Shown here: positions 29,301 to 64,000 of the stretch, one piece after another
Layout: each line of letters begins with the position of its first letter
Position numbering within the stretch: position 1 is the stretch's first letter
NCBI GenBank assembly: GCA_030272155.1
Contig: CP126204.1
Coordinates: 1,479,501-1,543,500 of the forward strand
Direction: 5' to 3'
DNA: 64,000 nucleotides
DNA from: Tetradesmus obliquus
Taxonomy: Eukaryota > Chlorophyta > Chlorophyceae > Sphaeropleales > Scenedesmaceae
Notes under the pieces: generated by a model
Database searches by the model: none
What the model saw: only the letters and a program-made list of their open reading frames with translations
What the model was told of the DNA's origin: nothing
Made by a program: the position numbers and the translations under genes

Positions 29301-29690
29301 GCCTCCAGAGCTTCTAGTGCGCAAATGCGATAGTTCAGACATAACATATGCGTTGACTAATGTGTATCTCCGAGCTGGTGCCCAAAAGAACCCTGAGCAA
29401 GGAGGAGTAGCAGTTTCTCTGGTGTGGCTGGGTGACTCAGTTGATCCTCTCAGCGCCTTGTTTTTGCACAACATAACAGCCTCCAGAGTTTCCATTGCGC
29501 AAATGGTCTGATCCAGTCCTTGCACACAAATTGTTTGATGTAAATCTTTGAGCTGGTGGTTAAAAGAACACTGAACAAGGAAGAGTAGCAGTTTCCCGGT
29601 CATGACTAAATGACTTGAGTGATCCGCTCTGCGTTGCGGCTGAGTGACTCGGCTGATGGCACTGCTTGCACAGCAACAAATAACACACAC
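29301..29690. repeat. Diverged tandem duplication at the satellite/gene border
   Basis: A segment of about 180 bp starting CCTCCAGAGCTTCTAGTGCGC at 29,302 is repeated in diverged form from 29,481 (CCTCCAGAGTTTCCATTGCGC), with matching inner parts (GAGCTGGTG, AAAAGAAC, GGAAGAGTAGCAGTTTC). No coding potential is convincing. It separates the repeats from the SRP72 stop codon by about 450 bp. Confidence 0.65.
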
Positions 29691-29750
29691 ATGCTAGGTG
29701 TCTGACCCCAGATTGCCACGAAATCACATTGTCATGACATGTTGCTTCAT

Positions 29751-32700
29751 TCAACGCCTGCCTCCCTTGCCCTTGGACCCAGCCCTAGCAGGCAGGTTGG
29801 GCTTGGCTGGCCCCTTGGCCTTCTCAGGCTCCTCGCCCCGCTCCGCCTTGGCACCCCTGTCCAGCGCCTCGTCCACCTTGCCGGCGCCCTGGCTGCCCTT
29901 CACAGTCTCCTGCAGTGCAGAGGAAAAGAGGAACATAGCGTGTGAGTATAAGCATGATGACAACAACAACTGCCACTTGCAAACAACATGTGTTGCCACC
30001 GATGCCTAGGGCCATTGGATGTCAGCTTGTCTTTGGATGTAGAGCGTTGAATTGCGTGAAAACCTGCGCCCTGCAACTGCGATACACAAGTGCTGCAGTC
30101 TCCTCAACCCCCCTCGCCACATGCTTTGCACACGCTGCTAACACGCGCTGCCTGCACACGAGCCGCACCTGTCTGTCGCGCCTCCTGCGCTGCTTCTTCT
30201 TTGCGTCGCTGCGCTGCCACTTGGGCAACCAGCGCTCCGGGTCTGGTAGCGGCAGGCCCCCGTTGGGCTTGGAGGCGTCGTAGCCCTTGGGCAGGCGCGG
30301 CTTGCGCTTCTTGCGCGCCTTCTTCGCCTGCGCGTGAGCAGTACAGCGATGGTTTTATAAACAGCGGCAATTCACATGTAGCACTACAAGCAACACCGCA
30401 CCAAGATGGGAGTTGGCACCACCACATTTTATGGAATGCAGCTCCGTATGTTCAAGTCGTGCGACACGCATACAAACGCATGACCAGAGGTTGCGGCGGC
30501 AGCAGCGCACAAACAACTTCCTGCGTGCAGGCTGCAGTGCAATGGTGCCATTGCTGTGTCTGCTGCCGCTCATCTAACAGGCACACCACCACCGGATGCA
30601 GCCTAACTCCATAGCTGCGCCTGAAACCCGCCCCAGATGCAACCACCTTGGGCGCCGCCTCCGCCTCCTCTGCATCCTCCTCCTCCTGCCGCCGCCGCGC
30701 CAGCTCCTCCTTGCGCCTGCTGCTGCTGGCAGAGCGCGCCGCGTCCTCCAGCGAGTCCAGGTCCAGCCCGGTGCCCAGGGACGCGTACGCGGCTGCGTTT
30801 GATTCATTCGAGGGGGCCAGGGCGTGGAGGGATCGAAAAGTGCGACAGGGGCCGAGCGAGCGTGAGATTGTGAGTAATTATATGTGTGCACATGTGTGCC
30901 AGGCACCACATCAAGCATCGGAAGGGCACATGCATGCATGCGGAGGCAGATGCAACGCAATGTTACGAAAGGCATGTTGCACTTAACATTCCTGCATAGG
31001 CGTCAATGGCATGGTCAGCTGTCACAATGGCGAGCGCTGCATGTGCCTGTCACGGCAAAACAGTACGTTGATTCGAATATCGGTTGCTTTGCACAACGTT
31101 GCCTACTGCATGGCGCATGTAGCAGGCCGGTCAACTGGGCAGTCGCGCTCACCTGGCAGCTGCTTCTGCAGCACTGCCACTGCCTCTGCATCTCCCGAGG
31201 CGGCAGCAGCGCGCGCCAGCTGCGCCATCGCTGCTGCACTGGTGGTGCTGCCTGCCCCGCCCAGCTTTGACAGCTGCTGGTAGAGGGCCATGGCATCGCC
31301 TGCTGCGCCCTGCGACAGCTTCAGAGCCACTAGGCGCTGCAGGCACCAGCCCAGGCCTGCGGCGGCTGCTGTGTCACGCGGTGCTGCCGCGCTGCGCGCC
31401 TGCCAGTGCTTCAGCGCTGACTGCAGCAGCGACTCTGCTCCAGCTGCATCGCCCGTCTGCAACGGCAAATCATATTATCACTGAAGTGAGCAGGTTTGCA
31501 GCAGGGCGTCAACGGATGATCAAGTACTGCAGCGCTGCAACAGCTGCCCAACTCAAGTGTGGCAGTCGCCACCAAATCGCAGGGACCGCATGCACACAAA
31601 GAGCTAGCCAGAGGGTAGCCGCGCGAGCTGCTGCAGGTGCCGCACCTGCTCATGCAGCGCCACACGTGTAGCCAGCACTGCCGGGCGCATCTGCAGCTCA
31701 GCAGGCAGGCCGCTGCCCAGCAGCTGCAGCGCTGCTGCTGCATTGCCTGCCTCCAGAGCCAGATGCGCCCGCAGCAGAGTGGGGCGGGCTGCCTCCTCAG
31801 CACTGCTGCTGCTGCTGCTGCTTGGTGAAAAGCCTGCCAGTAGCTTGTCTGCCTCAGCAGCCTGGCCAGTGGCAGGGAAGGAGCAGCGGGGGACAGTGAA
31901 CAAAGCAAGCAGCACATGTGAGCCAAGCACAAGACCAGGTGTGATGACATCAGGAGTGCTACATGAGGAAGACAAGGGCAGCATGCATCTCAAAGAGATT
32001 AACCACCAGGGTGGGGAAGAAAGGGCGCTCACAAAGGCAGAGTAGTGCACAGTTAGAGCTTTTCAGCAAGCGCTACGTGCACTGCCGCATTGCGAGGCGT
32101 GCGCAGCACACCGTGCCCCCAGGCCTGCCTCACCTTGCCCGACTTGGCCAGCAGCACAGCCTGCAGCATGACCACGCTGGCGTCACCCGGGTAGGCAGCC
32201 AGCAGCAGCCCAGACAGCTCCCGCGCCTGGTCCAGCTTGCCTGGTAGGGGGGCAGCAGGCGGTGCAGAGGTTGCAGAGACACAGCTCGTGAGTGCAGCAG
32301 GAGGTGGGCGCATGCACGGGGATGTTGAGGGTAGAGACTACACTGAGACAGGCATGTCAAGCCAAGGCACAGCATAGACGCCTGGCATAGTAAGGACAAT
32401 GCAGCCGAAGGCGACCGCACACGCTATACTGCGCTGCTCTGCAGCTCGCGCACCTGACAGCAGGTACAGCAGCGCCCTGTTGAGGTGCAGCAGCTGCTTC
32501 TGCTGGGCGTTGAGGCGCGTGGCGATGTCCGGGTCCAGCGCCAGGCTGCCCCCTCCTGCGCCCTTGTCCAGCAGCGACTCCAGCTTGCGGATGCTGCGGC
32601 TGTAGAAGCCCTTCTGCTGCGCGTCTGCACACAGGCAGTGACAGGCAAAGAATATGAGTGAAGAGACAAGAAGAAATGTGTGCAAACAGCCTGAGTCAGT

Positions 32701-35503
32701 GCATACTAGCAGTGTACCGCGCTGCAGCCACAGAAGGTTCAGGCTGCCAGGCAACACCAAAACTGCACGCAGCAGGTGCCATTGACTGAGCCATCCAGGC
32801 CACAGCAACTCCGCAAGCCCTGCCACAAGCCGCCATGTAGAACTGCTACCAGCTGCTCATGCACCCTCACGTTGCCACAGCGCAGCCATCCCAGTCACCT
32901 GTCAGGTACGAGGCCACGGCCCAGTTGTTGGCTGCCAGCGCTGCCACCTCCCGTGCATGGATGTCACCAGCCACCAGCGGCTGCAGCTTGTCCAGCGCAG
33001 CAGCAGCCCTGCCACTCCCAAGCAGCAGGAAGGCCAGCAGCACGGTGAGGGGCGCCAGCTCGCCCAGCACCTCCTCCTCACTGAACTCCTCATCAAACAG
33101 CGCCTCCTCGCCTGAAACCGGCAGCGACAACAAGAGGTGAGTGCACTCGATTTTGTAAATGGTCACTGCGATTGGTCACTGTAATTGGTCACTGTAAAGG
33201 TGTTGATGTACTGTGTTTTGCATGCAAAGGGTTGTCAACATGCAAAGCTGTACTTGCTCACGTTGCGACGGTCGCAGCAGGCACAGTGCAGAGGACGTTG
33301 CATGGGTAGGCAAGGACTGCATGCAGGAGCTCTGGTGGGGCAGGGTAATGCTGACGCAGGCCTGGCGGCAGCTCTGCTGTTGGCCAACCAGAGCGACGCC
33401 GCTGCCAGGCCCCAAACCCTGCTATTATTGCGCCCAGTTCCTCGGCGCACACCCACAGCACCCTCTAGCCTGCTCACCCTGCTTGTAGGCTGCCTTCACT
33501 GCTGTCTCTGCCGCCTCCTCATCACCAACCTCAGCGAGTCCACAAGCCCTGCAACAACCGCCACAGCATCACCACAGCACCACAGCAAAATAACGAGCAG
33601 TGTTAAGCAGCGGCAGCAGCAGCCATGGACTAGCAGTGGCAAGCATCAAAACAACCCAGCAGATAGCGCCCGCAGCAGCAGCACAGCAAAGGCTGCGACA
33701 GCCCTTGACCAGCAGCAATGCCAGACCGTTCGGTCGTGTTGGTTTTGCAGATGCGTGTGCACGCCACGCAGTGCAGCAACCATGTCACCAGCTGCCGCAG
33801 CTGCCACCCTATCCCTGGTGTTTGTGAACAGTGCTGCCATCCCCAGCAACCACAGTGCTGATGTACTGCTGCTCATGCAGCTGCTTGACCAGCTTGTTCC
33901 CCAAAAGCTCAGCTTCCCACCCCCGTAAACCTCCCAAATTGTGCCAGCACGATGTGGGAGATATACAGGGGTGCTAAGCCCAGCTTTCAGGGTTATAAGC
34001 TGGGTAAGCAGAACGCTGTTTTGTGCCAACAAAGATGTAAATGCCGTAAATTTGTCTGAAACGTTGGGCAGCACCATCAAGAACCTATTACTGTGCTGCA
34101 CGTTGCCGATTCTGTTTCACCGGCAGCTGCAACAGGCACCATCTGCTGCAAAACCCTGTTGTTGAGCTTTGGTTAGAGCAGCAGCAACAGCTCTGAAGAT
34201 GCCTCGAGGCTGCCAGCCGCACTTCTTCAAGGCAAGACTGAAGCTGGCCACCAACCACGTGCCAAGTGTGATCTTGTTGCAACCGCAGCTGCTCAACAGG
34301 ATCCTGACACTGCCTGTGCATGGCTGCGCACGCTACACCCTGCAACCTGCACCTCAAGCACAGCAACCTCGCCATGCCCTGCACCGCCCCCGCACCTGTT
34401 GAAGGCTACCTCGAAGCTGCACTTGCATGGCTGTGCAAGCTATGCCCTGCTGGCTGCAGCTCAAGCCTGGCAGCTGTGCCCTGCACTGCCCTGAAACCGT
34501 GAATCAATAAGCAAAGCCCGCACCTGTTGAAGGCGATCTCGAAGCTGTCGCGTGGCTTGATGCCCAGCTGGCGCATCAACTCAGGCAGCTGCGCGGAGCG
34601 GCCCGCACTGACATAGGCGGCCAGCAGGTTGGTCTTCAGCTCAAGGCTGGACACCTGCAGACAGCAGCAGACAAGAGAAGCACCAAGCACGAGCTAAAGT
34701 GGTGCAAGTGCTTGGAAGAAAGAGGGGGAGTGGCACAGCCGACAGGCAGCAGGTTGGTCTTCAGCTCAAGGCGGGACATCTGCGGGAAGCAGCAGACAAG
34801 ATTGCAGGCGGCATGTTGTGTTGCTGCCAGTTCATGGAGAGCGGTAGTCATCAAATGCTTCGGAGCGCTGTCAGCACATTCTCCAGCGCGCCAAACAGCT
34901 CTCGCAGAAGCATGCCGCGGGTGGTTGCTGACCCCTTGGCACTGGCATTGTCTTCTAGGCAGCATGCACCCTTAAAACAAACAGGCCACATGCCTGCATT
35001 CATTCCCACCGCTGTCCGCTGCTACCATTACACAGTTCGCGTGCACTCCAAGCTGCTGCTGCTGCTGCTGTGCTGTCGCCGCACCTGCCCCGCCGCCTTG
35101 AGCTTGTCGCAGGCCTCGGGCCACAACACACGCCCCGCCCTGGCCCAGCCAAGTGCACGGGTGCACCAGCTGATGCTGAGATGCTGATGGGCCCAAGCCA
35201 TCTTTGAACTGCCCTCAACCCACCTGGCCTGCTGCCTTGAGCTTGTCGCAGGCTTCCACGCAGGCAGCGCCCTGGTCCAGCCTGAAGTGCACCTGCTGCT
35301 GATGCCCTCAACCCATTCCTTATATTCAATGTGACACTACGCAGTTGTGTGAGTAGACCCACCTGGCCTGCTGCCTTGAGCTTGTCGCAGGCCTCCACGC
35401 AGGCAGCCCCTTGGTCCAGCCTGAAGTGCACCTGGGCAGCCAGCTGCAGCGCCCCAGAGGCATGCGCCTCGCCCACAGAGCCCAGCAGCTTCAGCGCCTG
35501 CAG

Positions 35504-35550
<47 letters not shown>

Positions 35551-36555
35551 CATGGCACGCCCGGCGGCACAGCAGCTTCAGCAAGCGTGGCGCTGGAAAG
35601 ACAGCAGGTGAGGCCAGCGCATAGCTATAGCAGACGGTGGGCATGCTGCGCTGTGTGCAGGCAGCTACACGCGCCTGGCATGTCGACACGCCTGCTCCCC
35701 CTGCTGCAATGCAGTGTGCTGCACCCAGGTAGTTGCGTACAACTGCTGCTTGACACTTGCTGCAATGCATCATGAGAAAGCATAGCTGTCCCTACTCTGT
35801 TTGCCATCTGCTCTGTTTGTGCTGTGCCCTCAGCTGCCCTCTGTGCTGCAGCAGAGCATTCATTGCTGAGAGATGCAGAAGGCAACACGCATCTGCTGCT
35901 GCTGCATGAGCCGCCCTGCAGCACCATCCATCTGAGTGAGCAGCTGCTGCGCACCTCATCAAACTTGCCGAGCCTGTAGCAGCAGTATGCCTGCGGCCAG
36001 TGCAGAGGAACAGCACAGCAGCCGCAAGTATCAGTTGGTTGGCTAGTCTCCGCGAATGAGTTAGCTCTGCATGCCACGTTAGCCCTGAAAGAGCAGCGGT
36101 CATGAAGCTGCAGGACAGCGGCTGCCTGATCAGCAGCCGCAGGTATCAGGCAGTTGACACGGCAGCGCATGCTGCAAGAGGCCGCTGCAGCAGGCACTAG
36201 ACCAGCCACAGCTGCAGAAAAAGGCTCACCCGCTCAAAGTGCATCTCCTGCTGCAGCTGCTTGTGTGCTAGCACTTTAGCTGCCTCCTCATACTCTCCCA
36301 ACTGCAGGTTGGCGATTGCCTTGCATGCTAAAGCATCCACATCACCAGGTGACAGCCTAAGGACTGCAGCAGCAACAGCAACAGCAGAGTCAGTTGCAAG
36401 GCAGTAAACTCAGCAACGGAAGAGCAGGCACGCACCAGTGCATCAAACTTACTTGTGTCGGTGAGCTTTACGATTTTGCCATGTTCATGTTGGCTGATCA
36501 GCTTCTGCAGCTTTTCAAAGCACTGCTCCAGTTCACTGGGCTGGTCCGTCGCCAT
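29751..36555 (-). CDS. SRP72: Signal recognition particle subunit SRP72, 14 exons, 694 aa
   Basis: This is the SRP72 protein of the eukaryotic signal recognition particle, which binds SRP68 and 7S RNA in the cytosol and helps target nascent secretory proteins to the ER. I assign 14 coding exons: 36453-36555, 36230-36363, 35955-35990, 35363-35497, 34524-34654, 33478-33548, 32899-33111, 32454-32624, 32134-32240, 31646-31861, 31153-31456, 30647-30792, 30169-30327 and 29751-29909. All have GT..AG introns and the lengths sum to 2,085 nt. TPR repeats fill about residues 1-540 (DALACKAIANLQLGEYEEA, YCCYRLGKFDEALKLLG, FNRACGLAEVGDEEAAETA). The C-terminal RNA-binding segment is lysine-rich, with KPRLPKGYD and PDPERWLPKWQR at about 594-626, followed by a basic tail. 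Length is close to human SRP72 (671 aa). Exon 3 is a 36-nt microexon. Exon 4 and exon 5 edges are duplicated into neighbouring introns. Confidence 0.93.
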
Positions 36556-45264: not shown

Positions 45265-46557
45265 TATCATGTCAGCTACCACACGGACTGCTGTGAGTCA
45301 GGCTGCTGCAAACCTCCAACCTGTCAAGCATTTGATAGAGGTCCACCAACTACATTATTACTCAAGCTCCTGCAGCGTGACTGCTGCTGCTGCTGCAGCC
45401 TTGCCGCCGCTGCTGCTGCTGCTGCTGCTGCTGCCTCCCTCACCTGCAGCCGCTTGTACTTGGGGCAGGCAGTGGGGCAGTCCAGCACCTTGAAGCCGCT
45501 GGCGCGCTGGAAGCACATCGTGAACTGTATGGCCAGCCAGCAGCGGTTGGTGGAGTCCATCTTGGTGCAGCCCTGCTTCATCGCAGAGATGGCTGCATCG
45601 CACAGGGAGCAGTGCAGGTCATGCACATGTGTCAACTCAGGAAGTTACATGCAGAACAACAGCCGCAACAAAGGCATGGAGTGTTGCCTTTGTCAAACTT
45701 GTTGCAGTTGCATATGTAGCACCAACACGTGTCCTGCACATCCTGGTGCAACCCTGCTTCATTGCAGAGACGGCTGCATGCGGGTACAGGGTGCAGCACA
45801 GGTCATGCACACACGGCTGGCTGCAACAGGTGCTTAGAGCGTTGCCCGAGTGACACCGGCTGCAGGCAAGGCAACCCAATGGGACAAGATGTTCCGGTGA
45901 TGCTGTGCTACCAGCTGCTGTTGCAGTATGGCTCAACCTTGGACGCTGCAGGGGTGGTAGCACTCCTCATTGTACTACTGCTTGCAAGCGGTACACAGCG
46001 GCATCATTTAGAAACCATTGTGCTCAGCTGTGGCGCCCCCACCTGAGGTGAAGCAGGTGTTGCCCAGGATGATGTTCATGAGCCCGCTTTCACTGGCTGC
46101 ATGCTGCTCCCACTTCTCCAGCGCATCTGCAGGCGCAGCAGCACGGGCGGCAGTGCGGCACAGCAAGGCATGGCGGATCGGTTCCAGCAACTTGCAAGGT
46201 GCAGCCCTACGTGCTTTGGCTGTTGTGAGTCTCTTCAAAAGGGAGGGATGACAAGCATGTGCAACAGTGCCCTAGGCTGGTGGAAAAGCGTGAGCTTTCA
46301 ATGCTGCACGTTGTTATAGCCTACTGCCAGCTTCAAGGGCGGCCCCACGCATCAAGCAAGCCAGCTGACCAACGTGTGCTGTCCAAACATCTCCAGAAAC
46401 ACTTACTTCTGCCCTGTATAAGGTTCTCCTGTGGTATGGCTTCCAGCACAGCAGCTGCATGCAATTGTCCAAGGGCCCATGTGCTGTGTAGCTGTGCTGC
46501 AGCTAAGCACAGCAGCAGTAGACTGGGGAGTGACACAGGCAGTCGTTGGTCAAACAT
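41899..46557 (-). CDS. GEX1/KAR5-type nuclear fusion membrane protein
   Basis: This is the family of yeast Kar5, plant GEX1 and fish Brambleberry, nuclear-envelope proteins needed for fusion of gamete nuclei. Exons: 46407-46557, 46043-46126, 45444-45592, 45112-45191, 44705-44924, 44407-44472, 43985-44143, 43129-43623, then a long last exon from 42825. The first eight sum to 468 codons in frame. In order: a signal peptide (LPSLLLLCLAAAQLHSTWA), a cysteine-rich domain at about 67-150 (NTCFTSG, GCTKMDSTNRCWLAIQFTMC, DCPTACPKY, VEDCTAKM, YTQFFGDV), coiled-coil Gln-rich helices at about 160-340, and membrane segments near 352-392 and 430-450. A low-complexity Gln/Ala tail with a KRGKK basic patch and an acidic end follows. 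The tail may splice at 42,021 (GAAGAAA|GTGAGT) or run to the stop at 41,899. The cysteine spacing and the YTQFF/CLFLQ region are the family hallmark; identity is inferred from these. Confidence 0.78.
43624..43701 (-). repeat. (CTG)n run directly upstream of a 3' splice site
   Basis: About 25 CAG triplets on the plus strand are CTG in the sense of the GEX1/KAR5-like gene and end at the CTGCAG acceptor of the membrane-segment exon (first base 43,623). The repeat thus occupies the position of the polypyrimidine tract. Confidence 0.85.
45192..45262 (-). repeat. (CTG)n run directly upstream of a 3' splice site
   Basis: About 21 triplets, CTG in the sense strand, end in CTGGCTGCAG, the acceptor of the exon starting at 45,191 that carries VEDCTAKM. 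Confidence 0.85.
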
Positions 46558-47132: not shown

Positions 47133-48064
47133 ATGCTGTGCTACTCACCAGGACTGCTGTCCACTCGGCAGCAGCTGCTGCGGCCAGGCGCTGCATTGAT
47201 GCCAGGAATCAGGACCCGCAGCCCATGCCTCATCGTGCATGCAGCCAAGGGCTTCGGCAGCAGCAAGCGCTCTACCAAGGTGTGGCACCAGCAGCAGCAG
47301 CAGCAACAGCAGCATGACCAATATGTCTCATGACCATGCAATGATGCGTAGGGCGTGCCAGCACGTCCTGTCACACCTGTCTTATATAACGATATCTCTG
47401 CAGGAGGATGTGTCAACAGCTGGCAGGAAGGCGAAGCGCGTGGCTGTGCGGCCCCAGGCCCCCCAGGTGCCATCAGGCCTAGCTGACGTGGCAGTGCAGC
47501 AGTACGAGGAGCTGGAGGCAGCCAAGAAGTGAGCAGCAGAGTCATGTTGACAGTGATATGATAATAAGTTGCATGCAAGCAGGCTAGTAGTACATCCTAC
47601 TAGGTTGGTGTGAACACACCCAGTGGTGTGGCACTCTGGTGGTAGCAGTGGCAGCAGCAAGGACGGCAGGAGTGAAGGCAACAGATACAGTAGAAGCAGT
47701 GACAGCAGCAATGACAGCAGCGATTGCAGCAGCTGTAACAGCAGCAGCAGTTAAGGCACCTGCTGGAGACCATGATGATGAGTGCTGCAGGCAGTAGCTT
47801 TGACAGCACTCCTGTGTCACAATGACATGCTGGCGTTGTTAGCGCCAAAACCGGAGACAGGTGGTGCTTGCTGTGCATGCAAGCATTGTGCATTACATGC
47901 AACAGAACACTGCAAATATGAGGAGCGCTGCTGGTGGTGTCAAGGTCAGCGCCACACCAGGCTGGTGTGCAAATCATACGCAGCACCTGACTAGTGCTGG
48001 AAGTGGCGGCGTACAAGTTGTTTGTGCTCCTGCTATCTGCTAAGTGGTGCCCTGCTGCTGCTTG

Positions 48065-48128
<64 letters not shown>

Positions 48129-50874
48129 GCTGCTGCTGCAGGGCTGCCGAGGAGGAGGCTGAGTTTGCGTCCCGCCTAGAGCTCATCAAGGCGGAGGCAG
48201 CACAGAAGAAGGCGGCAGGGGTGAGCTCAGCAGCTGCAGTAAATGCAGCTGCAGCTGCCTCAGCAGAGCAGCGGCCTAGCAAACCGCCAAGATATTTGCC
48301 ACGTGCAGAACGCAGCAGTCAGTGGCTTGCAAGGTCAGCCTTTGTCTTACAGACATCGCGTGCCGTTGGTTCTCTCTCCAGCAAGCACCATAGCTCCAGC
48401 TCATGCTCGCATCTCATACCACCTCACCACATGTACTGCAGTGCCCGACCTTTGCACCTTTGTGAACCTGTGCCTGGCCTGCAGCTGGTACCCAGCCTTC
48501 CTGCCAAGGCAGCAGTGCAGCAGCCGCAGCGTGCCGTGTTTGATGCGTCGTATCAATGCCTTGTCAAACCATCAACATGTCATGCACTGCTTGCTGCTGT
48601 TTCCCTTCTCCAGCAAGTGCTGTACACCTCACAACCCTTGCAAGCTCAACACAGGCCTCACAATACATGTGCCCTGCTGATCTTTGCACTGCTGCAGCTG
48701 GTGCCCAGCATCCCCGCAAAGGCAGCAGCGCAGCAGCCGCAGCGTGCCGTGTTTGACGCCCCCAAGGAGCCCGAGGACATCTACGCCAACCCGCCCTCCA
48801 TTCTGAGCACGCTGCAGGACCAGCTACAGAGCGACATCAACGACCCAGCCCTCAGGTGCGGCTGCGCGCTGCGGCTGGTAGCCTCATGTTGAGCAACTGA
48901 GTGGGGTTTGCTGGTGTAGGTGCGGCAGCAGTGGGCAGCAGTACACAGCGGATGGTGAGCAGTCCTCAAGTTGACGCTAAACGGGGCAGTGCCCCAGGCA
49001 GCCATGGAGATGGTAGCAATTCTGCACTGATGTGATGCTGAGCCATGCTGCGTCCTTGGTGTTTGGTGTACAGGGAAGCCAAGATCGGCCCCGGGCAGCT
49101 GGGCCTGGCTGGTGGCGCCACCCGCTTTGCTGCTTGGCCGCCAACTAGCATAATTGATTAGCCATGCTGCTGCCTCCTCCTGTCTTTGTGTGCTTGCAGG
49201 GAAGCCAAGAACGGCCCTGGGCAGCTGGGCCTGGCTGGTGGCGCCATCCGCTTTGCTGCTTGGCCGCCAACTAGCATAATTGATCAGCCATGCTGCTGCC
49301 TCCTCCTGTCTTTGTGTGCTTGCAGGGAAGCTAAGATCGGCCCTGGGCAGCTGGGCCTGGCTGGTGGCGCCATCCTGTTTGCTGCTTGGCCGCCAACTAG
49401 CATAGTTGATTAGCCATGCTGCTGCCTCCTCCTGTCTTTGTGTGCTTGCAGGGAAGCTAAGATCGGCCCTGGGCAGCTGGGCCTGGCTGGTGGTGCCATC
49501 CTGTTTGGGCTGGTGTTCGTGCTGGTGGCAGGTGGCGACTTTGCCACCACAAACAGGTGGGGCTTCGTGCTGCAATACATGCGTCATGTGACACATGTAT
49601 ACACGGCAGCTGCACCATGCAGCAGCCATGATATCCCCTGCCAGTGCCCTATCTTGCGCTCAAAAGCCAAGTGATCAGCACTGCAAGTGTGATGCGTGGG
49701 TGGTGCTGACATCCATCCTCTTTGCTGTTCAATTTGCTGCGATTGCAGTCGTGAGTGTCGAAGTCATGTTCGCTGATGTGATGTGGCTGTGCACACACCA
49801 CCCCTGCCACCTGTCTGGGTGCTGCCGCAGGTACAAAGGTGTGCGGCCATCGCGCCCGCCGCCTGACCCCATTGAGATGGCCCGCCTGGCAAGGCAGGCT
49901 GAGGGCTTCGAGGCCAAGTTTGCGGCTGACCCGGCAGACCTGCAGGTGCGAACGCCACCTTTGATTCTGCTGCCTTGTTTGCAGCGAAGCCTGCAGCAAA
50001 CGTAGCAGGCCTGCAGTTGCAAAGTTTGCAGCAACCCCAGCAGGCCTGCAGTTAGTTGCAGCTGACCCAGCAGACCTGCAGGTGTGTATGCCACTGTTGA
50101 TTCTGCTGCCTTGTTTGCAGCGAAGTCTGCAGCATTGCCAGCAGGCCTGCGGCTGCAGAGTTTGCAGCTGACCCAGCAGACCTGCAGGTGTAGTAGCGTT
50201 TTAACACATAGCACATTAATTGTGGATAGCTATGCCTTTGCTGCCGTCAGTCAGCAATGAAGCTTCCTGCAGCCCTTCAAGGGGCCACAGGCTACAAAAC
50301 AGCATGTGCACGTGTACTCCGAGTTTCGCCTACCGCTCATTTGTTGTTGGCGGCGTCTGCAGCAGAGTCAGGGCTGCCTGCGCTTTCGTGGCTTCTCGCT
50401 AACAGCTGCTGCCGCTGCCGCTGCCACTGCTGCTGCCATGTGTGGTGCTGCTGCTACAGTCGCTGGAGGCTGCTGCTGTGACGTATGCACGCATGGCTGA
50501 CTACCCCAGGGCGGCTGACCTGCTGGAGCAGCTGGTGAGGCGGGGGGAGGGGTACTGCAGCGGAAAGTGCAACTGTTGATTAGCTTGATGATCCTTGTTG
50601 CTGCTCTGTGGCTGTTGCTGTCGGCATGTATGCTACACACGACGACTGCAAACATAGGCCGCTGTGTGCTTGCTGCTGCGTTGGTGCTGTTACTTTTGGA
50701 TGTTGGGTGTGCGTGTTGCCGTGGTTGAATCTTGCTGCCTGTGCAGAAGCATGGAGCAGCACGGTTGCTGCGAGTGCAGAGTGCTGCTGCCCAGGCTGAG
50801 CGAGCTTAGCTGCTGGTGCTAGCCGTATCTGGCGCTTGGGCCTTGACCACACCCCCAACCTCATGCACTGCCTG

Positions 50875-50958
<84 letters not shown>

Positions 50959-52395
50959 ACTGTGGCCAAGCCGGATGACGCTGAGGCGTGGCGTGTGCTG
51001 GGCGAGGCGCGGCTGCTGAATGTTGATGCCAAGGAGTCGGTGACAGCGTATGAGAAGGCACTGGCACTGCGGCCCAACGACCAAACCATCATTGCTGTGA
51101 GTCGAGTCGGCAGCAGCGCGGGCAGCTGTTCCGCTGTAGCTATTGGCAGCAGCAGCAGGAGTGCGGCTTGATAGGTCTATGCTAGTTTGACTAGACTAGG
51201 CAAGGTGCTGGGTGCGGCGCGGCTGCTCAATGTTGATGAATGCTGTGAACTCGGTGGCAGCATATGAGAAGAAGGCACTGGCGCTGCGGCCCAATGACCA
51301 GACCATCATTGCTGTGAGTCGAGTCAACAGCAGCGCGGGCAGCTGTTCCTCTGTAGCTACCAGCAGCAGCAGCAGTGCGGCTTGATAGGTCTATGCTGGT
51401 TTGACTAGACTGGGCGAGGTGCTGGGCGAGGCGCGGCCGCTCAATGTTGATTAATACTAAGCATTTGATGGCAGCGTACAGGAAGGCACTGGCGCTACGG
51501 CCCAATGACCAGACCATCATCTCTTTGAGTCGAGTCAGCAGCAGCGTGGCCAGATGCCCTCTGTAGCCAGCGGCAGCAGCACGACATGGCAGGTTCTGTG
51601 CTGGTGTGGCGGGACCCCTTGCACAGGCTGGGTTCCTGCCGTATCACACTGCTGGTGCAACCACCTGAACAGAACAGGGGATTGCAGTCGCTTCAGCTGA
51701 ATAGCACGCACTGCCTGCTGCGTGCTGCTGTGTGTGTGCTGCTGCCTATGCACCTTGCTATATGTCCGCAGGGGCTGGTTGACGCTTACGTGGCCAACAG
51801 CCAACAGGCCAAGGCGGTCAGCTACCTGACAGGGCTGCGGGATCAGATACTGGCGAATGCAGTAACAGCAGCAGCAGCCGGCAGCAGCAGCAGCAGTGAA
51901 GCAGCAGCAGCAGCAGATGCGGCCAGCAGCAGTGCTGGTGCAGCAGGGGAGCAGGCCTCAAGCAGTGAGCAGCAGCTAGAAGTGGACCCCATCGGTGTGC
52001 AGCTGCTGCTAGGTGAGCGGCTGTGATACTGCCGACGGGCTGTGCTTTGGTTGTTGCTACAGTTGCCTGGCTTGCCTGCCTGCCTGCGCTGATTTGGGTT
52101 ACATATCCTTCTTTGCCTGCCTGGCAGACATGCCTGCATGGCAGCACCTCAAGCTGGTCCAGCAGCAGTGCAGCTTCTCAGCAGAGTCTGACCCACTTTT
52201 GCACTGATGTGTGTCGCATGGCCGCGCCCTTCGTCTCCCCTGCATGTCACCTGGCTGCTGTGCCACAGGTTGCTGCTGCTGCTGCTGCCGCGTGCAGGCA
52301 AGGCGTACGCGGGCTGACGTGGCCACGACCAGGACGCACTGGCTGCATACGACACACTCATCGGCGCCTTCCCCAGTGACTTCGGGGGGCTAACA

Positions 52396-52453
<58 letters not shown>

Positions 52454-52852
52454 CACTTGCAGGCAAGGCGTACGCTGGCCGGTGCGGCCACGACCAGGAC
52501 GCACTGGCAGCCTGTGACACAATTATTGGCGCATGTACGACACCCAACCTTGCTGCTGCTGCTGCTGCTGTTGCTGCTGTCGTCGCCTGCAGGCAAGGCG
52601 TACGCAGGCTGGCGTGGTCACGACCAGGACGCCCTAGCAGCTTATGACACGCTCATCGGCGCCTTCCCCAGTGACTTCAGGGGCTACCTGGCCAAGGCAG
52701 TGTTCCTGAAAGAGCGGGGCAGGCAGGGCGATGCAGAGCGCATGTTCCTGCAGGCCAAGTACTATGCGCCTGAGGAGATGCAGGGCTTTGTGGCTGCCAG
52801 GGCGGGCGAGCGGGCGATGATTGAGCCGCTGCCTGACAACGGCATGGAATGA
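47133..52852 (+). CDS. SLOW GREEN 1-like chloroplast TPR protein, 10 exons, 480 aa
   Basis: The C-terminal part closely resembles plant SLOW GREEN 1, a plastid TPR protein needed for chloroplast development. Exons: 47133-47279, 47404-47528, 48142-48220, 48698-48855, 49452-49556, 49831-49945, 50460-50534, 50959-51096, 51772-52012 and 52593-52852. All have GT..AG introns and the sum of 1,443 nt is divisible by three. Residues 1-50 are basic and Ser/Arg-rich, like a transit peptide. A hydrophobic segment (FGLVFVLVAGG) lies near residue 185. TPR units follow: TYARMADYPRAADLLEQL, AWRVLGEARLLNVDAKES with AYEKALALRPND, and in the last exon YDTLIGAFPSDFRGYLAKA and DAERMFLQAKYYAP. A Ser/Ala linker at about 340-375 is atypical. 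Exons 4, 5, 6, 8 and 10 have duplicated edges in adjacent introns. A TGTAA at about 53,022 may be the poly(A) signal. Confidence 0.82.
48058..48141 (+). repeat. (CTG)n run upstream of exon 3 acceptor
   Basis: About 24 CTG-type triplets end in CTGCTGCAG, the acceptor of exon 3 of the SLOW GREEN 1-like gene (first base 48,142). Confidence 0.85.
49074..49577 (+). repeat. Exact 126-bp tandem repeat x4 covering an acceptor and exon start
   Basis: Exon starts GGAAGC follow CAG at 49,074, 49,200, 49,326 and 49,452, spaced exactly 126 bp. Each unit holds the intron end (TGTGCTTGCAG in units 2-4), the first part of exon 5 (AKIGPGQLGLAGGA) and, in units 1-3, a run into TTGATTAG or similar with an in-frame stop. 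Only the fourth continues into the hydrophobic segment, so only it gives a full protein. Confidence 0.92.
50877..50955 (+). repeat. (CTG)n run upstream of exon 8 acceptor
   Basis: About 26 CTG triplets end in CTGCCAG, the acceptor of the TPR exon starting at 50,959. Confidence 0.88.
50959..51523 (+). repeat. TPR exon plus two decayed downstream copies
   Basis: The 3' part of exon 8 with its donor (CATTGCT|GTGAGTCGAGTC) recurs at about 51,203-51,325 and 51,407-51,535, about 210-217 bp apart. Both extra copies contain small deletions and insertions that break the TPR frame, so they are decayed exon duplicates inside the intron. Confidence 0.85.
52297..52680 (+). repeat. Three copies of the last-exon start, each behind a CTG run
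   Basis: GCAAGGCGTACGC follows CAG at 52,297, 52,463 and 52,593. The first copy soon meets TGA, the second lacks the FPSDF part, and only the third continues to the stop. Copies two and three are each preceded by long CTG runs (52,398-52,453 and 52,549-52,580). Confidence 0.85.
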
Positions 52853-53907: not shown

Positions 53908-55254
53908 ATGAACCGCCTGGTGAGTGCACTACTGCAGCAATACGTCGATCGATCTGAATTTGCAGTAGATCAGTTTTCAAACAATCAATGGCTTAGTAAT
54001 GATGATATGGGCTTCTATATAGCCGTGCCAGAGAGCAGGGGTCCTCAGGCGCATAAGCATCCTGCTCCGACATGTCTCGGAGGCAGCACGCTGAAGACAG
54101 CAAACAATCTGCTTTTGAACTTACAATAACAATTAAATTATGTTGGCTGATATTGCAGGCCGTATGTCTGCTTCTGCTGGCCGTCGTTGTGGCGGGTGAG
54201 TGTTTGGGCGCCAGCCTGCTGAGCGCAGCAACAGGCTCGTCGTCAACAGCTTACGGAATGAACAAAAGAGTTACCTGTCAGTCTAAATCTTTTAATGAAG
54301 ATACTGAGATGGATGTGGGCACGTACTTGGCTGTCGGCAGCAAGGACCCGCCCTGGAGAGATGGCAGCACTGTCGAGCAGCACTGAGCAGCATTGACAAC
54401 AGCAGCATGCACAAAAACGTTCGCCGTACCTACACTGCAAACTAATCTGACCCTTTTCGCCTCTGTTTCATTTCCCGTGTGCTGCCTGCAGCTGAGGAAG
54501 AGCAAATCGTGGTGAGCTTGAGCTGCAGCAGCCAGCACTGCACGCCAGAGGTGCCAGCCTGCTGTACCCCTGTCACCTGAGCACCTGAGTGAACACACCA
54601 CTGTTGTGGTATCGACTGCAATGCACACAGTGTATCATTCATCACTCCATATTCTCCTAGCCTGCAGTTATCGCGCTTGTGCTGTACAGCATACATGTAG
54701 CCTGACTCCACTGCCCGCCGTGCCCCTCCCCTCCCCCGCCCTGCAGAACGAGCGCAAGCTGCAGGGCCTGCTGCTGCCCCTGGCCGCCAAGGCTGTTGCT
54801 GTCAAGGCTATCGCAGCAAAGGCTGCTGTGGCTGGCGCGGTGGTGTCCCAGGGTGCTGCCGCACTGGCTGCTGCTGCGCCCCAGGTGTCGGTGCAGGAGG
54901 CTCCCTGCCAGCAGGTCTGCCATGACAAGTGCAGCGTGGTGATGGAGAAGGAGTGCAAGAAGGTGCCAGTGACAAAGAAGGTGAGAGAACCGGATATGGA
55001 TACTAGTTTTTTGCTGGGATCGTTTGTTGTCAGCTGTGTGAAACGCTGCTGATTTAGCGATGCATATGTTGCCCCAAACTTGCAATGACTGAAGCAACAC
55101 GCCTGTAGTCAGCTGCTGCGGCTTACTTAGTGTGCAGCTCACAATGCAGCTCTTCATGTGTTGCGCTGACACGTACACGGCTGTGCCTGGCAGCCTTTAC
55201 GTCGCTCTGCAGTGCGCGTCATGTTAATCTTTCCCGCCCGCAACCACTCACCAA

Positions 55255-55307: not shown

Positions 55308-55882
55308 CTGGTGCTCCTGCCACTTTTTTTCTGCCACCCACAACCCTGACCTACTAACCCACCACAATACCCCATGCCTACACATCCTTCCTACCCCACC
55401 ACCTACATTGTCATACCACATAACAAACCCCAGGAGTGCGCCATGGTGCCCAAGACAGTCAGCGAGAAGCGCTGCAGCAAGAACTGCCAGGTCAGCCTGC
55501 CAGGCCATGGCCGCAAGATGAAGGGACTGCTGCTGCCCCTGGCTGCCAAGGCCGTTGTCGCCAAGGCTGTTGTCGCAAAGGCTGCTGTGGCTGGCGCTGT
55601 TGTGGCCAAGGCTGCTGCTATGGTGCCCTCAGTGGTGAGCGCTGCGCTGCTGCTAGGCTGCATGTGGCTGTTGCGATGTGATGTTTTGTTTTTTGGTGTC
55701 AAACGCGCATACCGGCTGTAAGTGGGCTGCCAGTTTGCGGCCGGGATATAAACATGATGTATACGCTGTTCAGCTGCATGGTTGCTTGCGCACGACCAGA
55801 TCATCACTTGCTGTCATCATGGGAACTGTCCACTGGGCTCCCTCGCCATCCTCTTCGCTGGCAGTTCTTGCGTACAATTTCC

Positions 55883-55920
<38 letters not shown>

Positions 55921-58419: not shown

Positions 58420-61400
58420 CTAGCTGCTGGCGCCTGCTGCTGCTGCTGCTGCCGCCACTGCTGCCTCAATATCTGCCTTAGGCTTGTCCACCACCTTGCC
58501 CTTAGCATCAAACATCTTCCTGAAAGGAATGAAGCTAATCCCTGGCAGAAAGGGCTGCAGGCATGGTGGCACATTCACACCATCCGGTGTCTGGTAGTTT
58601 TCCAGCACGCAGCACAGCGTGCGCTCCGTGGCGCTGAGCGTGCTGTTGAGCATGTGCACGAATGCATTCTTCTGCTCGCCGCCAGCTGCAGTCTTGGGCT
58701 GGCGCATGCGGATGTCCAGCCGGCGCGACTGCAGGAGGGAAGGTTGCAGCAGGGCAGCAGCAGCGGCAGCAGGGATGTTGCAGAAATGCACTGCATGGGG
58801 TACACAACTTGACATGTGCATGCACACAACGTGTGCACTGAGACGCTCAGCAGCCCTGCGCTGCTTGATGCTTGGTTCACATGTTCTGAATTGCGCCGTT
58901 TCTAGTGCTTGTGGCATGCAAGCATGCGTGTAGCCGTGCTGCCGCCAGCATGTGCTGCATGCGGTCCGCACCTGGTAGTCTGTGCAGTTGGAGCATGAGA
59001 CCAGCTCACGGAAGGTCTTGCTGGCGGGGAACCATGCCTCCAGGTCGTACTTCTTGGCGGCAGCGTTGTTGAGCTCGCCAGACACAATGTTCACCACGCG
59101 GTACGGCAGACCCAGCGCCTGGCAGCAGCACGCAGCACGTGATACATCATAAGCCGTGCACCAGCTGTGTAATGCATGAGTAGATGATTGGTGAGTAAAA
59201 ACTTCACTAGTGGAAGGGGTACCGGCAGCAAGCACAGCAACCTGATACATGCTGAGCGTCCCGCACAAAACGCAATGTTCACCACGCGGTAAGGCAGCAC
59301 CAGCGCCTAGGGTGGGAGCATCACACAGCGCATGGTACACCCAGATAAGAACCATTGAGGAGGGCAAGCGGCAGCAAGCGCAGTGACCTGATATACACTG
59401 AGCACCTCACGCAAGACACGCTGTTCACCATGCGGTAGGCAAGCATAGCGCCTGGGCAGCGGGTGCAGCGCACAGCGCACCAGAGACTACACTACTTGTG
59501 AGCATCACCAGCAGAAAGTAAAGCAACCCGAAACAAGCTGCGCAGCTTGTGCAAGTGGCAAGGCGCAAGGGCCATGTGGGAGTGCGCACGTGCATGTGGC
59601 ACGCAGGGCGATTGGCCAGTCATATTCCGGATGGCCGCTACGCACCGGCACTAACAATGTAATAAGATCCCTACCACAGAATGACTGGCATCCGTACAAT
59701 CTGCACAACAACCAAAAGATAGCAGCCTGCTTGGCTGCTCACGCCCAGGTTTGAAAACTAGCACATGTGGTATCAAACTTGTGGCCGCTTGCCTGGTCTG
59801 CATTTTTTGTTGCCTGGTCTGCATTGCCACAGTCTGACTGCCTGCCCTTCAACGCCTCAACCCAAAGGCTTAGGGTGGTGCTGTGGATCCCAGAAGAGTC
59901 TTGCGGTAAAACCATATCAGGTATGATGGGATTTTACCGCAAATCCCATATGAGAATCACAGCACCCTCCTCAGCCATGTGGGCGAGGCGTTGCGACTGC
60001 AACATATGCACCAGGTGCAATGCATTGAATCGCTAAAACATGCCTGGCTGCCTGCCTGCTAGGCAGCGACCCATTTGGGTGCAAGTCCTCAGCATTGCCC
60101 AGCATCTCACAAAACATGTGTATTTGCAGAATGCATTAAAGCAACAAGGATCGCCGGGTTCCAGTGTACAGCCCAGAGCTTCAGACCTGAACCTCATGGA
60201 CCTAAATCTCGTCAAAAAACTCAAAAGGCCGCCTCACGCACCTGGTAGAAGTCCTCTGCGTTGCCCAGCATCTCCTCCATGACCTGCCAGCTGTCATCAC
60301 CCTCAGGGCTGCAGATCACAAACTGCTCCACCTTCTCAAACTGGTGGATCCTGCACGGCAGGTGGCAGGCAAGTGCAAACGGCAGCAGGGCGCAGCATAG
60401 GTCGGCAGCTGGTACACGACTGTGTATCAGCACAAATGTGAACACCCACTAAGTCCTGAGGACTGTGTGGTGCAAAGACAGATAGCAATATGGTTTGGCG
60501 GTAGGTTCACAGCTGGAGTGAAACCCCCAACAAAATGAGCTGCGGATGCATAGAACATGTGACCAGGCATGCGCCTCACCTGAGGATGCCCACCACCCTC
60601 CTCCACCCCAGCCTTGACCCAAAGAAGCCCACCCAGGAAGCCCTCAATGCAGTACACAGCAGCACAAACCCCCAGGCCCCCTCACTTGAGGATGCCGAGC
60701 GTGTCGTGCCTTACTTCCACTTTCATCATGAAATTTCAAGAGCTGCAACTCCAGCAGCCGCTGCCGCTCCCCTCCACCACATATGTGTGGTGACTTGTTG
60801 TTTGCACCAGGCATGCGCCTCACCTGAAGCACCAGGCATGCGCCTCACCTGAAGATGCCCAGTGTGTCACCAGGCATGCGCCTCACCTGAAGATGCCCAG
60901 TGTTGTTTGCACCAGGCATGCGCCTCACCTGAAGATGCCCAGTGTTGTTTGCACCAGGCATGCGCCTCACCTGAAGATGCCCAGTGTTGTTTGCACCAGG
61001 CATGCGCCTCACCTGAAGATGCCCAGTGTTGTTTGCACCAGGCATGCGCCTCACCTGAAGATGCCCAGTGTGTCACCAGGCATGCGCCTCACCTGAAGAT
61101 GCCCAGTGTGTCACCAGGCATGCGCCTCACCTGAAGATGCCCAGTGTGTCACCAGGCATGCGCCTCACCTGAAGATGCCCAGTGTGTCACCAGGCATGCG
61201 CCTCACCTGAAGATGCCCAGTGTTGTTTGCACCAGGCATGCGCCTCACCTGAAGATGCCCAGTGTGTCGCGGCCGTGGCTGCCCACCTCCTTCCTGAAGC
61301 AGGTGCTGTAGCCCACCAGGCGCAGCGGCAGCTCGGCCTTCTCAAACCAGCCCTTGCGGTGCATCGCACACAGCGTCTGCTCGCTGGTGGCGATCAGGTA

Positions 61401-61442
61401 CTTGTCATCGCCCTCGCCTGGCCACACAGGCAAGTTGAGGTC

Positions 61443-61484
<42 letters not shown>

Positions 61485-63973
61485 TCAACACCAATGCAGG
61501 ACCAATTTTGCCCTTTGGCGATCAGATACTTGTCATCGCCCTCGCCTGGCCAAATCATTGGGAGTGGTCAGCAGCAGGCGACATCAGCAGGTCAGCATGC
61601 CGCACACAACAAGTAGCTGCTGTTCAAGCGCTGGTGCACACTTTGCCTGTTGCCGTGGAATTGAGCAGGCATTGCCTCAGCCGCCCGTCATTAGACGCGT
61701 GGCCCACATGTGACCTTGTAGAGCTCATCATCAAACTGGGACAGCTGCGCGCACTCCGCCATGATGTCCTGCTTCATGAAGAAGGGAGTGTGCACCAGGG
61801 CTGCCGCAAGCGTGACTCATTACCCACCTGTGACCTCGCACAGCTCATCTTCAACATGGCTGCAGCTGCCGCAGAGTATGTGTTGTGCACAACACAACAT
61901 CGCCATGCACACCGATACAGAAATGCCACCCCATCACATCAACCCTCCCTCACCTGTGACCTTGTAGAGCTCATCATCAAACTGGCTGAGCTGCGCGCAC
62001 TCTGCCATGATGTCCTGCTTCATGAAGAAGGGCGTGTGCACGGGCTTGTAGCCGCGCCGGAACGCAAAGTGCAGCGCGGCGTTGATGAGCGCCTGGTTGA
62101 GCAGCGGGCCCTCATTGGTCAGGTAGAAGCCGCGCCCGCCTGGGGGGATGAGGCAGCAGCAGCAGCAGCAGCGCAGGCGCACACATCACTGCTGTCAGAC
62201 ACTGTCAGAGGGCCGTAGTGGTGAGTAAGTGACTCTGGTGCTGCTGTCCCGCCTCAATACACGGCTCAGCCCTGCGCTCCCACCTCCACCTACTGCATCA
62301 CATGACAGCTGCCCCGCAGCGCTCCAAGTTCTATCAGTGACCCTGCCATGTCCAGCTGCCAAAGGCGGCTGCGCCAAAGTGTGTGCCAACTGCCTTGTAA
62401 CAACACACCCCCACTAGCCAGCCCCACAATCGCACCTGCCACTGCCGCGACCGCCTCCAGGTTGACAATGTCCAGCAGCGTGACAAGGTCCACGTGGTTG
62501 TACAGCTTCTCACCCTCTCACCTCACAGCAACTGCTGCACACAACTCCAAAATTGGCACCGTAGATACCGCCGCCTGCTGTTCCTGCTGCAGGAGATCTG
62601 ATCTGCAAGGGCTGGTTGCTAGGCTACCCGCCCCACAACAACAAGCCCATAACAGACCCCACCAGCCAGCCCCACAATCGCACCTGCCACTGCCGCGCCC
62701 GCCTCCAGGTTGACGATGTCCAGCAGTGTGACCAGGTCCACGTGGTTGTACAGCTTCTCACCCTCAGCAGCGCTGCGGGGACTGCCAAACTCGCGCACAA
62801 TGGCGTTGTTGTCCTGCGCAAAGAGACAGGTCACATCACACAGGATGTGGCAGGCATGAGTAGCTGACAGAGCAACACCCAGGCTAGTCTGCTGCGGCTG
62901 TTTGCGCTTCGTAGTGACCAGAGCCAGCTCTTGCAGCATGAGCACTAGCATCTTGCAGCGCTAGATGGCCCAGCTTCTGCACGCGCAAGGCATCAGCGGG
63001 CCATGCTTATCTGCCTCTGCAGCAGGCTGCGCTGAGAGCTGCTGCTGTGACAGCTTGCACTGCAGTGGCAGAAGCGCTGCTGCCTGTACGCTACTGCCTG
63101 CTGACGCAGCTTGGTGGTGCCTGCTGGTTTGGCCAGCTCCAGCTACGCTGCTGCAGCAACCCTCGCCCCTGGCCCCTGAGCAGCGAGGCAAAGCTGCACA
63201 TTGCATGGTCTGCAAGGCTGAGCACACATGCATCCTACCAGCCATGAACATAAGAACCGACAAGCTGGATCAAACCAAAACAGCAGCAGTCTCACATGCA
63301 CGCAGCATATATGATATATATCACGGCGTTCTCATCATGCCAAAACACAACACCTGCAACTGTGCTCAGCCAAGCAATACCTTGAGAAGAAGAGGCAGCA
63401 GCGTGCAATCACAACTGCATATTACTGCCGCCGCACACCTCATTGTCGTCAACGGGCACGCTGTCATGCACGAGGTTGCCAATGGGCACCAGCGCTGCAT
63501 CGCGCTCGCTGATGATCTGCTTCTCCTTCTCCTCCAGCTCAGCAATGCTGGCCTTCATGGCCTTGGTCTTGTCCTGCAGCTCGGTGGCATCCTGCTTGGC
63601 CTGCAGGAGCGGTCGTGAGACAGTTTGACTGACAGCAGCCTTGACACAGCATGAAAATGGTGTCATCGCTGCATGCAGGGCAGGACACACAGCTGCGGGC
63701 CAGCCACTGCCCTGATGATGATCACGCTGCAACAGCTTGCATGGCACTGCCCCTCCTGCAAGCGCTTTAGATGCTACATCATGCAGTTGTTTCCCATGGA
63801 GCAGTTGCAGCTGCTTCGCTGCAGCACTGCGATTCTGCTGGCTGCATGCGCTGGCTGCGGGAATCGACTGCTGGCTTCAGGCTGCTGCCTGCTGCAACAC
63901 ACCTTGCGCAGCTCAGCAATCTGCTTGTTCAGGGCATTGAACTCCTTCTTGACCTGGTCCAGCTCGAAACGAG
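58420..63973 (-). CDS. Cytosolic seryl-tRNA synthetase (first exon outside window)
   Basis: This enzyme charges tRNA-Ser (and tRNA-Sec) with serine using ATP. Exons seen: 63903-63973, 63439-63600, 62684-62813, 61954-62139, 61249-61417, 60242-60350, 58972-59118 and 58420-58728. They join in frame to about 427 codons; about 40-45 N-terminal residues lie beyond 64,000. The coiled-coil tRNA-binding arm is in the first two exons ([20 protein letters not shown], then [15 protein letters not shown]). Class II motif 1 is in [20 protein letters not shown], motif 2 in [19 protein letters not shown] with [16 protein letters not shown], and motif 3 near [19 protein letters not shown]. The ending ([21 protein letters not shown]) has a poly-Ala tail. 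[10 protein letters not shown] and [10 protein letters not shown] fit the eukaryotic cytosolic type rather than the organellar one. Many exon edges are duplicated in the introns. Confidence 0.93.
59083..59456 (-). repeat. Duplicated acceptor edge of a seryl-tRNA synthetase exon
   Basis: The start of the exon at 59,118 (GCGCTGGGTCTGCCGTACCG on the minus strand) is repeated in decayed form at about 59,270-59,310 and 59,421-59,456, each with some of the intron before it. Confidence 0.8.
59901..59949. other. Two overlapping, mutually exclusive hairpins in an intron
   Basis: TTGCGGTAAAA (59,901-59,911) pairs perfectly with TTTTACCGCAA (59,932-59,942). ATGGGATTT (59,926-59,934) pairs perfectly with AAATCCCAT (59,941-59,949). 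Because the arms overlap, only one can form at a time. It lies in the long intron of the seryl-tRNA synthetase gene. Confidence 0.75.
60807..61262 (-). repeat. Minisatellite of splice donors, 38/42-bp units
   Basis: Eleven units carry CGCCTCACCTGAAGATGCCC at 60,841, 60,879, 60,921, 60,963, 61,005, 61,047, 61,085, 61,123, 61,161, 61,199 and 61,241. Spacing is 38 bp (GTGTGTCACCAGG type) or 42 bp (GTGTTGTTTGCACCAGG type). On the minus strand each unit reads GGGCATCTTCAG|GTGAGGCGC, the end of the motif 2 exon and its donor; the last one (61,249) is the real junction. A shorter unit at 60,816 and a diverged one near 60,568 extend the series. Confidence 0.95.
61517..62042 (-). repeat. Duplicated edges of two neighbouring seryl-tRNA synthetase exons
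   Basis: The acceptor edge of the exon starting at 61,417 is repeated at about 61,517-61,556. The donor half of the exon ending at 61,954 (about 90 bp) is repeated at about 61,709-61,798, with a decayed shorter piece near 61,826-61,858. Confidence 0.85.
62421..62765 (-). repeat. Duplicated donor edge of a seryl-tRNA synthetase exon
   Basis: About 98 bp covering the donor and last two thirds of the exon ending at 62,684 are repeated about 248 bp downstream in the intron (62,421-62,520), with few changes. Confidence 0.88.
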
Positions 63974-64000
63974 CTGCAGCAGCCAAATGATGTACAGGAG

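Follow-up and report, generated by a model that had tools for sequence, protein, structure and literature searches.

Do the ends of exons recur in the introns that adjoin them? In a 64-kb stretch of contig C14 of the green alga Tetradesmus obliquus (hereafter the window, meaning all 64,000 nucleotides), four predicted genes that follow a repeat-rich first 29.3 kb—those for SRP72, a GEX1-like protein, a SLOW GREEN 1-like protein, and seryl-tRNA synthetase (SerRS)—carry copies of their own exon edges inside neighboring introns (Table 1). An earlier note on this DNA had read such copies as frequent short tandem duplication across splice junctions and had linked them to intron gain. Self-comparison of the window from 29 to 64 kb, by which local duplications were located, recovered its examples in all four genes. 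A further example, in a MYND gene, was not borne out: a MYND-like regular expression matched nowhere in the window, and none of the duplicated pairs of 36 bits or more begins between 36.5 and 45.5 kb. That interval holds only perfect tandem repeats, one of 37 bp (37287-37367, 2.2 copies, containing CAGGT) and one of 28 bp (41604-41662, 2.1 copies).

Edge and event counts were made in 314 kb of the 104.66-Mb, 17-contig genome, i.e., in the window—with its repeat-rich first 29.3 kb excluded—and in 250 kb from contigs C1, C2, C3, C4, and C6. Genes were modeled with a purpose-written gene finder trained on these 314 kb rather than with RNA-based annotation; its first two versions were discarded, one for over-predicting tiny exons and one for learning CAG repeats as acceptors, and the third was used. 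The splice sites that it learnt are CAG/GTGAG for donors and CTGCAG/G for acceptors. These sites and the models for SerRS, GSA aminomutase, ClpP, SRP72, and the TPR protein look sound; the window SerRS is 99% identical to the T. obliquus database protein A0A383V6T7, and the GSA aminomutase encoded on contig C6 matches T. obliquus OEZ85_001690 at 100% identity over 293 residues. The GEX1-like model has no Pfam match, and its name is the label of the earlier note. Some copies were themselves modeled as exons, which adds noise to the edge counts; in SRP72 this holds for 35,085-35,114 and 35,224-35,292, and the donor-side assignment of that segment is putative.

How often are exon edges copied, and does the copying extend beyond the window? 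The exon-side 60 bp of 72 of 482 strong exon edges (31/241 acceptors and 41/241 donors) has a copy in the adjacent intron. Most of these copies—61, corresponding to about 1 in 8 of the 482 edges—reach to within 3 bp of the splice junction, while 11 stop short, and the splice dinucleotide AG or GT is kept in 49 of the 61. When the search was not limited to the adjacent intron, 100 of 526 exon-side 60-mers scored at least 40 on the intron side, as opposed to 1/526 when reversed, 8/526 when reverse-complemented, and 5/516 when taken from another edge; exon interiors gave 8/131 upstream and 8/131 downstream. Acceptor copies lie upstream and donor copies downstream as a clear lean but not as a rule, the wrong side of the edge giving 32/527. 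Copies are also mostly direct: local pairs of at least 50 bits number 176 direct vs. 10 inverted outside the window and 136 vs. 39 within it, and with the 89 and 38 that start in the first 29.3 kb set aside, 47 vs. 1 remain. Copied edges make up 13/74 in the window and 48/408 in the five other blocks together, and by gene they amount to 7/12 in ClpP, 8/26 in the GSA-containing model, 5/16 in the SLOW GREEN 1-like gene, 4/14 in SerRS, and 3/24 in SRP72. Exon-edge copying is thereby confirmed as real and as present beyond the window.

Table 1. Gene models of the window and the copies of their exon edges (positions counted from the first nucleotide of the window)
Feature	Position	Strand	Details
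SRP72 gene model	29751..36555	-	Gene finder; Pfam SRP72 RNA-binding domain PF08492, repeated segments omitted from query; self-comparison pairs 34,389/34,517, 34,622/34,747, 35,082/35,221/35,360
SRP72 donor-edge copy	34389..34479	-	Edge 34,524, real 34,517-34,594; 76% identity; downstream intron
SRP72 acceptor-edge copy	34747..34801	-	Edge 34,654, real 34,622-34,676; 91% identity; upstream intron
SRP72, two copies of putative donor-side segment 35,357-35,434	35082..35295	-	35,082-35,158 and 35,218-35,295; offset 139
GEX1-like acceptor-edge copy	45739..45811	-	Real 45,558-45,627; offset 181; 84% identity
SLOW GREEN 1-like gene model	47133..52852	+	Gene finder; Pfam, TPR-type domains only; name is the earlier note's label; self-comparison pairs 48,479/48,692, 49,046 array, 49,920/50,056, 50,995/51,205/51,419, 52,249-52,271/52,436/52,547
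SLOW GREEN 1-like acceptor-edge copy	48479..48546	+	Edge 48,698, real 48,692-48,759; offset 213; 90% identity
SLOW GREEN 1-like array	49046..49507	+	~3.8 units of 122-126 bp; three copies of acceptor edge 49,452
SLOW GREEN 1-like donor edge 49,945 and copies	49917..50191	+	Copies near 50,056 and 50,159; self-comparison
SLOW GREEN 1-like donor edge 51,096 and two copies	50995..51608	+	Copies from 51,205 and 51,419; unit ~210 bp
SLOW GREEN 1-like acceptor edge 52,593, two copies	52289..52683	+	Copies from 52,289 and ~52,463
SerRS gene model	58420..63973	-	Gene finder and database protein; truncated by window end; self-comparison pairs 59,082/59,270/59,410, 42-bp array 60,796-61,268, 61,388/61,516, 61,705/61,951, 62,409/62,657
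SerRS acceptor edge 59,118 and two copies	59082..59479	-	Copies 59,270-59,339 and 59,410-59,460
SerRS 42-bp array	60796..61268	-	~11 copies; units bear copies of donor edge 61,249
SerRS acceptor-edge copy	61516..61552	-	Edge 61,417, real 61,388-61,424; offset 128; 97% identity
SerRS, two copies of donor edge 61,954	61705..61873	-	61,705-61,802 and 61,825-61,873
SerRS donor-side copy of modeled exon 62,663-62,813	62409..62517	-	Real segment 62,657-62,765; offset 248; 95% identity; from the database protein, the true donor may lie near 62,683

Is the exon edge itself special? Tandem duplication might instead strike whole genes uniformly and neutrally, with edges looking special because exon-derived copies stay recognizable for longer. 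A base-coverage test fits this account, as coverage was found at 25/266 acceptors and 32/261 donors, and random positions in genes or introns gave means of 23.0-24.4; we discount the test because copies and arrays themselves add to intron coverage. The 60-mers copied were 62/386 for exon-side edges, 22/361 for intron-side flanks, and 26/315 for intron interiors, a roughly twofold difference of the kind expected if only the copy decays, and on these counts a purely neutral, uniform account was favored at first. It was dropped after events were counted and simulated. At offsets of 90-260 bp, 61 events span exon and intron, 8 are intron-only, 7 exon-only, and 10 intergenic or unmodeled; at the narrower offsets of 90-165 bp, 46 touch an edge vs. 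5 that are intron-only. Given the gene models, 47% of random 119-bp units would lie wholly in introns, 26% across one edge, and 26% wholly in exons, and a neutral uniform simulation with exon selection, decay, and detection included yields visible edge to intron-only ratios of 0.6-0.9, against the 61:8 observed. Even when at least 25 aligned intron bases were required, the counts were 25 vs. 8, against our rough geometric expectation of ~0.4 to 1. Detection depended on divergence: implanted units were recovered at similar rates at a divergence of 0.02 (edge 84/90, intron 89/90), with edges favored at 0.15 (44/90 vs. 13/90). Because the simulated ratio is 0.6-0.9 and implant recall is nearly equal at low divergence, the edge excess stands within the limits of the gene models and of the assumed rates on which the simulations rest, and we regard uniform neutral duplication as an unlikely explanation of it. 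That edges are no more duplicated than random intron segments is consistent with the coverage test and is contradicted by the event count set against the simulation.

The count of 8 intron-only events is if anything high, since one is probably an element, four lie within 11.2-13.7 kb of one block, and one, at 68% identity, is a long match. The probable element consists of a 71-bp intronic sequence present in two identical copies (L012:6096-6166 and 6302-6372; B3 16,096/16,302 in the joined block), with inverted ends TGTAACG/CGTTACA that were recognized by eye.

Unit length and reading frame show further regularities. Among 87 events, 40 have units of 100-140 bp, 14 of 15-40 bp, 5 of 40-100 bp, and 10 of 140-200 bp, with a second group of 11 at 200-260 bp. 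The unit of the SerRS array, at 42 bp, is far below the 100-140 bp class. Exon-only duplications have an offset that is a multiple of three in 7 of 7 cases, and the offsets of edge-crossing duplications show no frame preference (21, 18, and 22 with remainders 0, 1, and 2). This pattern is what coding selection would leave if one size class struck exon-containing sequence and the harmless units remained.

Where does the homology end? Of 54 anchored pairs, 21 show homology in the intron flank as well (class A), and in the other 33 homology halts near the splice junction (class B); at offsets above 90 bp class B accounts for 31 of 52, the two excluded pairs (offsets 58 and 60 bp) resembling simple repeats. 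The offsets of the two classes do not differ significantly. Short tandem duplication across splice junctions is thus frequent, as the earlier note had claimed, both in the window and in the 250 kb elsewhere, but simple tandem duplication may not be the whole process, since homology halts near the junction in 33/54 pairs.

Such a halt would follow from copying that is aware of the junction (e.g., templated by splicing intermediates or other RNA), whereby an exon end is pasted into the intron up to the junction and arrays arise later by unequal exchange. The exon preference of events agrees with this, as does one young pair in which 33 exon bases are identical and the intron heads unrelated, although its spacer also contains a dispersed element. 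Six arrays were judged by eye, and in four the partial unit ends within ~10 bp of the junction: block B1 19,320 at +6, B1 41,132 at -4, B3 25,886 at 0 or 10 according to which pair is taken, and B3 46,607 at GTGAGG, a donor-like site that is not modeled as a donor. The splice junction may therefore itself be a boundary of copying. However, the partial unit extends 26-28 bp into the intron in the two other arrays (B1 44,782 and window 49,046), and the 49 of 61 copies with an intronic GT or AG carry what a free exon would lack. Class B spacers also retain some homology to the flank of the copy, at p<=0.05 in 7 of 30, and the spacer-flank score per base of both classes (offset <160, exon identity <0.96) has a median of 0.60 in 26 pairs, compared with 0.36 in the null and 0.76-1.16 in simulation. 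Given this residual homology, many of the class B pairs could be aged tandem units, and part of the class B pattern also arises in a neutral simulation when indels are many. We consider it rather improbable that junction-aware copying of this kind explains the pairs.

An array at block B5 12,128 turned out to be a 28-bp repeat and was kept out of the junction argument; the repeat array (L022:2126-2596, joined block B5 12,126-12,596) lies in a stretch without a strong gene model. Spacers might also belong to dispersed, introner-like families, which would recur as similar intron sequences at unrelated loci. Spacer and flank queries matched elsewhere in the 314 kb in 17 of 102 cases, many of the matches being short pieces, and the searches led nowhere except to one element in one spacer, found when two stretches were searched genome-wide. 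Part of an intron spacer, L018:5436-5503, recurs in at least 29 other genomic places at 79-93% identity and is a short dispersed element.

What becomes of the copies? Copy and exon differ mostly at codon position 3, at a rate of 0.171 in class B (0.057 and 0.045 at the other two positions) and 0.164 in class A (0.040 and 0.032). Together with the retention of AG or GT in 49/61 copies, this bias might suggest functional decoy splice sites or alternative exon ends under selection. Of the indels, however, 22 of 26 in class B and 5 of 7 in class A shift the frame, offsets have no frame preference, and comparison by eye showed none of the copies in the SerRS and GSA proteins of the database. For the 18 edge families that have at least two copies, changes private to the two best copies number 54/1278 at positions 1-2 and 47/636 at position 3, a mild bias, and those private to the exon 8/639 and 26/318, a strong one. 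Multi-copy families and frameshifts thus bear out only weakly the idea of the position 3 bias as constraint on the copies, which we rejected, and selection on functional decoys appears very unlikely. We take the copies to be mostly decaying, with a position 3 bias that is not fully explained.

The same divergence could have been brought in from outside, if recombination between diverged haplotypes, or an assembly artifact, had joined two versions of one exon end. Divergence is 0.22 at fourfold and 0.044 at zerofold sites, intron homology is lost sharply, and position 3 is more diverged than the aligned introns, all of which would agree with such an origin. Yet a 1.65-kb SerRS query found no second full copy genome-wide, only short matches elsewhere, exon identity is spread from 0.82 to 1.00 across pairs, and several arrays consist of many copies of one unit; we hold this explanation to be highly improbable. 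Copies go along with longer introns, the median length being 496.5 (n = 50) for copy-bearing and 286 (n = 191) for copy-free introns.

Other repeats occur in the window. Its first 29,300 positions contain tandem arrays of 314-333 bp units at 21,953-23,138 and 27,952-29,299, 151-164 bp repeats, numerous runs of A or T, and 38 of the 39 inverted pairs of at least 50 bits. In a cysteine-rich predicted gene, a 107-bp exon segment (54753-54859) is repeated 759 bp downstream (55512-55618) at 84% identity, with both copies in predicted exons.

The best reading of these observations, and the one toward which we lean, is recurrent local duplication of exon ends that is tolerated and followed by mostly neutral decay. 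A direct copy of an exon end would be placed in the adjoining intron, with a pitch that is most commonly ~100-140 bp, so that the copy would sit on the intron side of an intact edge. The event would be tolerated because splicing from the intact edge would leave the mRNA unchanged, and exon-only duplications would survive only when the frame is kept. The copy would then decay almost neutrally, with amplification into arrays, presumably by unequal exchange, as a possible further step. Within the 314 kb and on the purpose-written gene models, the copies themselves, their side and order, their size class, the frame filter, and the surplus of events that touch an exon relative to intron-only ones are all observed; near-neutral decay is supported, with some contrary signs. 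As to cause, we infer DNA-level repair or replication slippage. Short tandem duplications from the repair of paired nicks in plants are local, direct, and of roughly this size, and we know of no exon preference or junction precision among them.

Several results weigh against this reading. Copying is uneven: two of the six blocks are almost copy-free (1/88 in C2 and 3/76 in C3, L006-L015; C1 has 18/70 and the remaining two blocks 9/84 and 17/90), and 16 of 32 genes have no copied edge where 8.9 would be expected at one common rate, strong gene-to-gene differences for which coding bias, GC content at third codon positions (GC3), and coding sequence length do not account. The coverage test, as said, gave no edge excess. 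Intron homology in class B is at null level, in some pairs despite 95-98% identity of the exon copy, and class B makes up 6 of 14 young pairs compared with simulated fractions of 0.135, 0.226, and 0.400 depending on indel rate, which exceeds the simplest decay model. The standardized excess at codon position 3 is 4.0 (bootstrap 3.0-5.4), where a neutral copy should give ~2 by our estimate; where the introns of a pair align, differences affect 35/242 sites at position 3 vs. 54/791 in the intron, which a neutral copy does not explain, and the changes private to copies lean mildly to position 3 as well. Tolerated local duplication does not account for the exon preference, for the uniform pitch, or for the halt of homology so often seen close to the junction. 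In a bolder proposal, a process that recognizes the splice junction, with splicing intermediates as a possible template or exon-positioned chromatin as a possible guide, would copy the first or last 30-100 bp of an exon up to the junction and paste this piece into the neighboring intron, the pitch being nearly constant at ~100-140 bp. We put it forward as doubtful.

Do the copies give rise to introns? The signature of AG/GT duplication (exon tail equal to intron end or exon head equal to intron start, with an offset equal to intron length) was found in 0 of 242 introns at 0.7 identity, the best reaching 0.68. With the copies also missing from the database SerRS and GSA proteins, a link to completed intron gain is not supported. 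A transcript-derived GSA protein (P0122, eukprot, 97% identical) ends in unrelated sequence that begins directly after GGHISG and may represent a retained intron. Comparable systems are known. In a potato gene, a duplication crossing a boundary can create a new intron (PMC4974935); there as in the alga, tandem duplication runs over an intron-exon boundary and copies the acceptor and part of the exon, but the potato case concerns a new intron in one gene, whereas in the alga many genes are duplicated with 0/242 gained introns of the AG/GT type, a test that the potato variant falls outside. By analogy with the potato gene, edge copies are possible raw material for new introns, and no more. Novel introns in Drosophila arose where coding sequence that contained a proto-splice site was duplicated in tandem (PMC2891723), which resembles the algal case in being local, close to introns, and in conserved genes; the Drosophila duplications lie in exons and are intronized, whereas the algal copies sit in existing introns, mostly with the old splice site. 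Short direct repeats of 4-30 bp near the two borders of one intron (PMC11782384) also adjoin splice junctions, unlike the algal repeats in that the latter comprise ~30-100 bp of one exon end inside one intron, mostly at a pitch of 100-140 bp. A literature search gave no account of exon-edge copying in Tetradesmus in the titles and abstract openings of the matches listed.

For gene annotators the copies are a warning, several of them having been modeled as exons by the gene finder. If copying is genome-wide, one alga would hold many frozen stages of a single kind of event, from near-identical arrays through to decayed copies, and intron growth, splice choice between near-identical neighbors, and duplication-based intron birth would become directly testable. 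A junction-aware process, if true, would keep lengthening introns and seeding spare splice sites.

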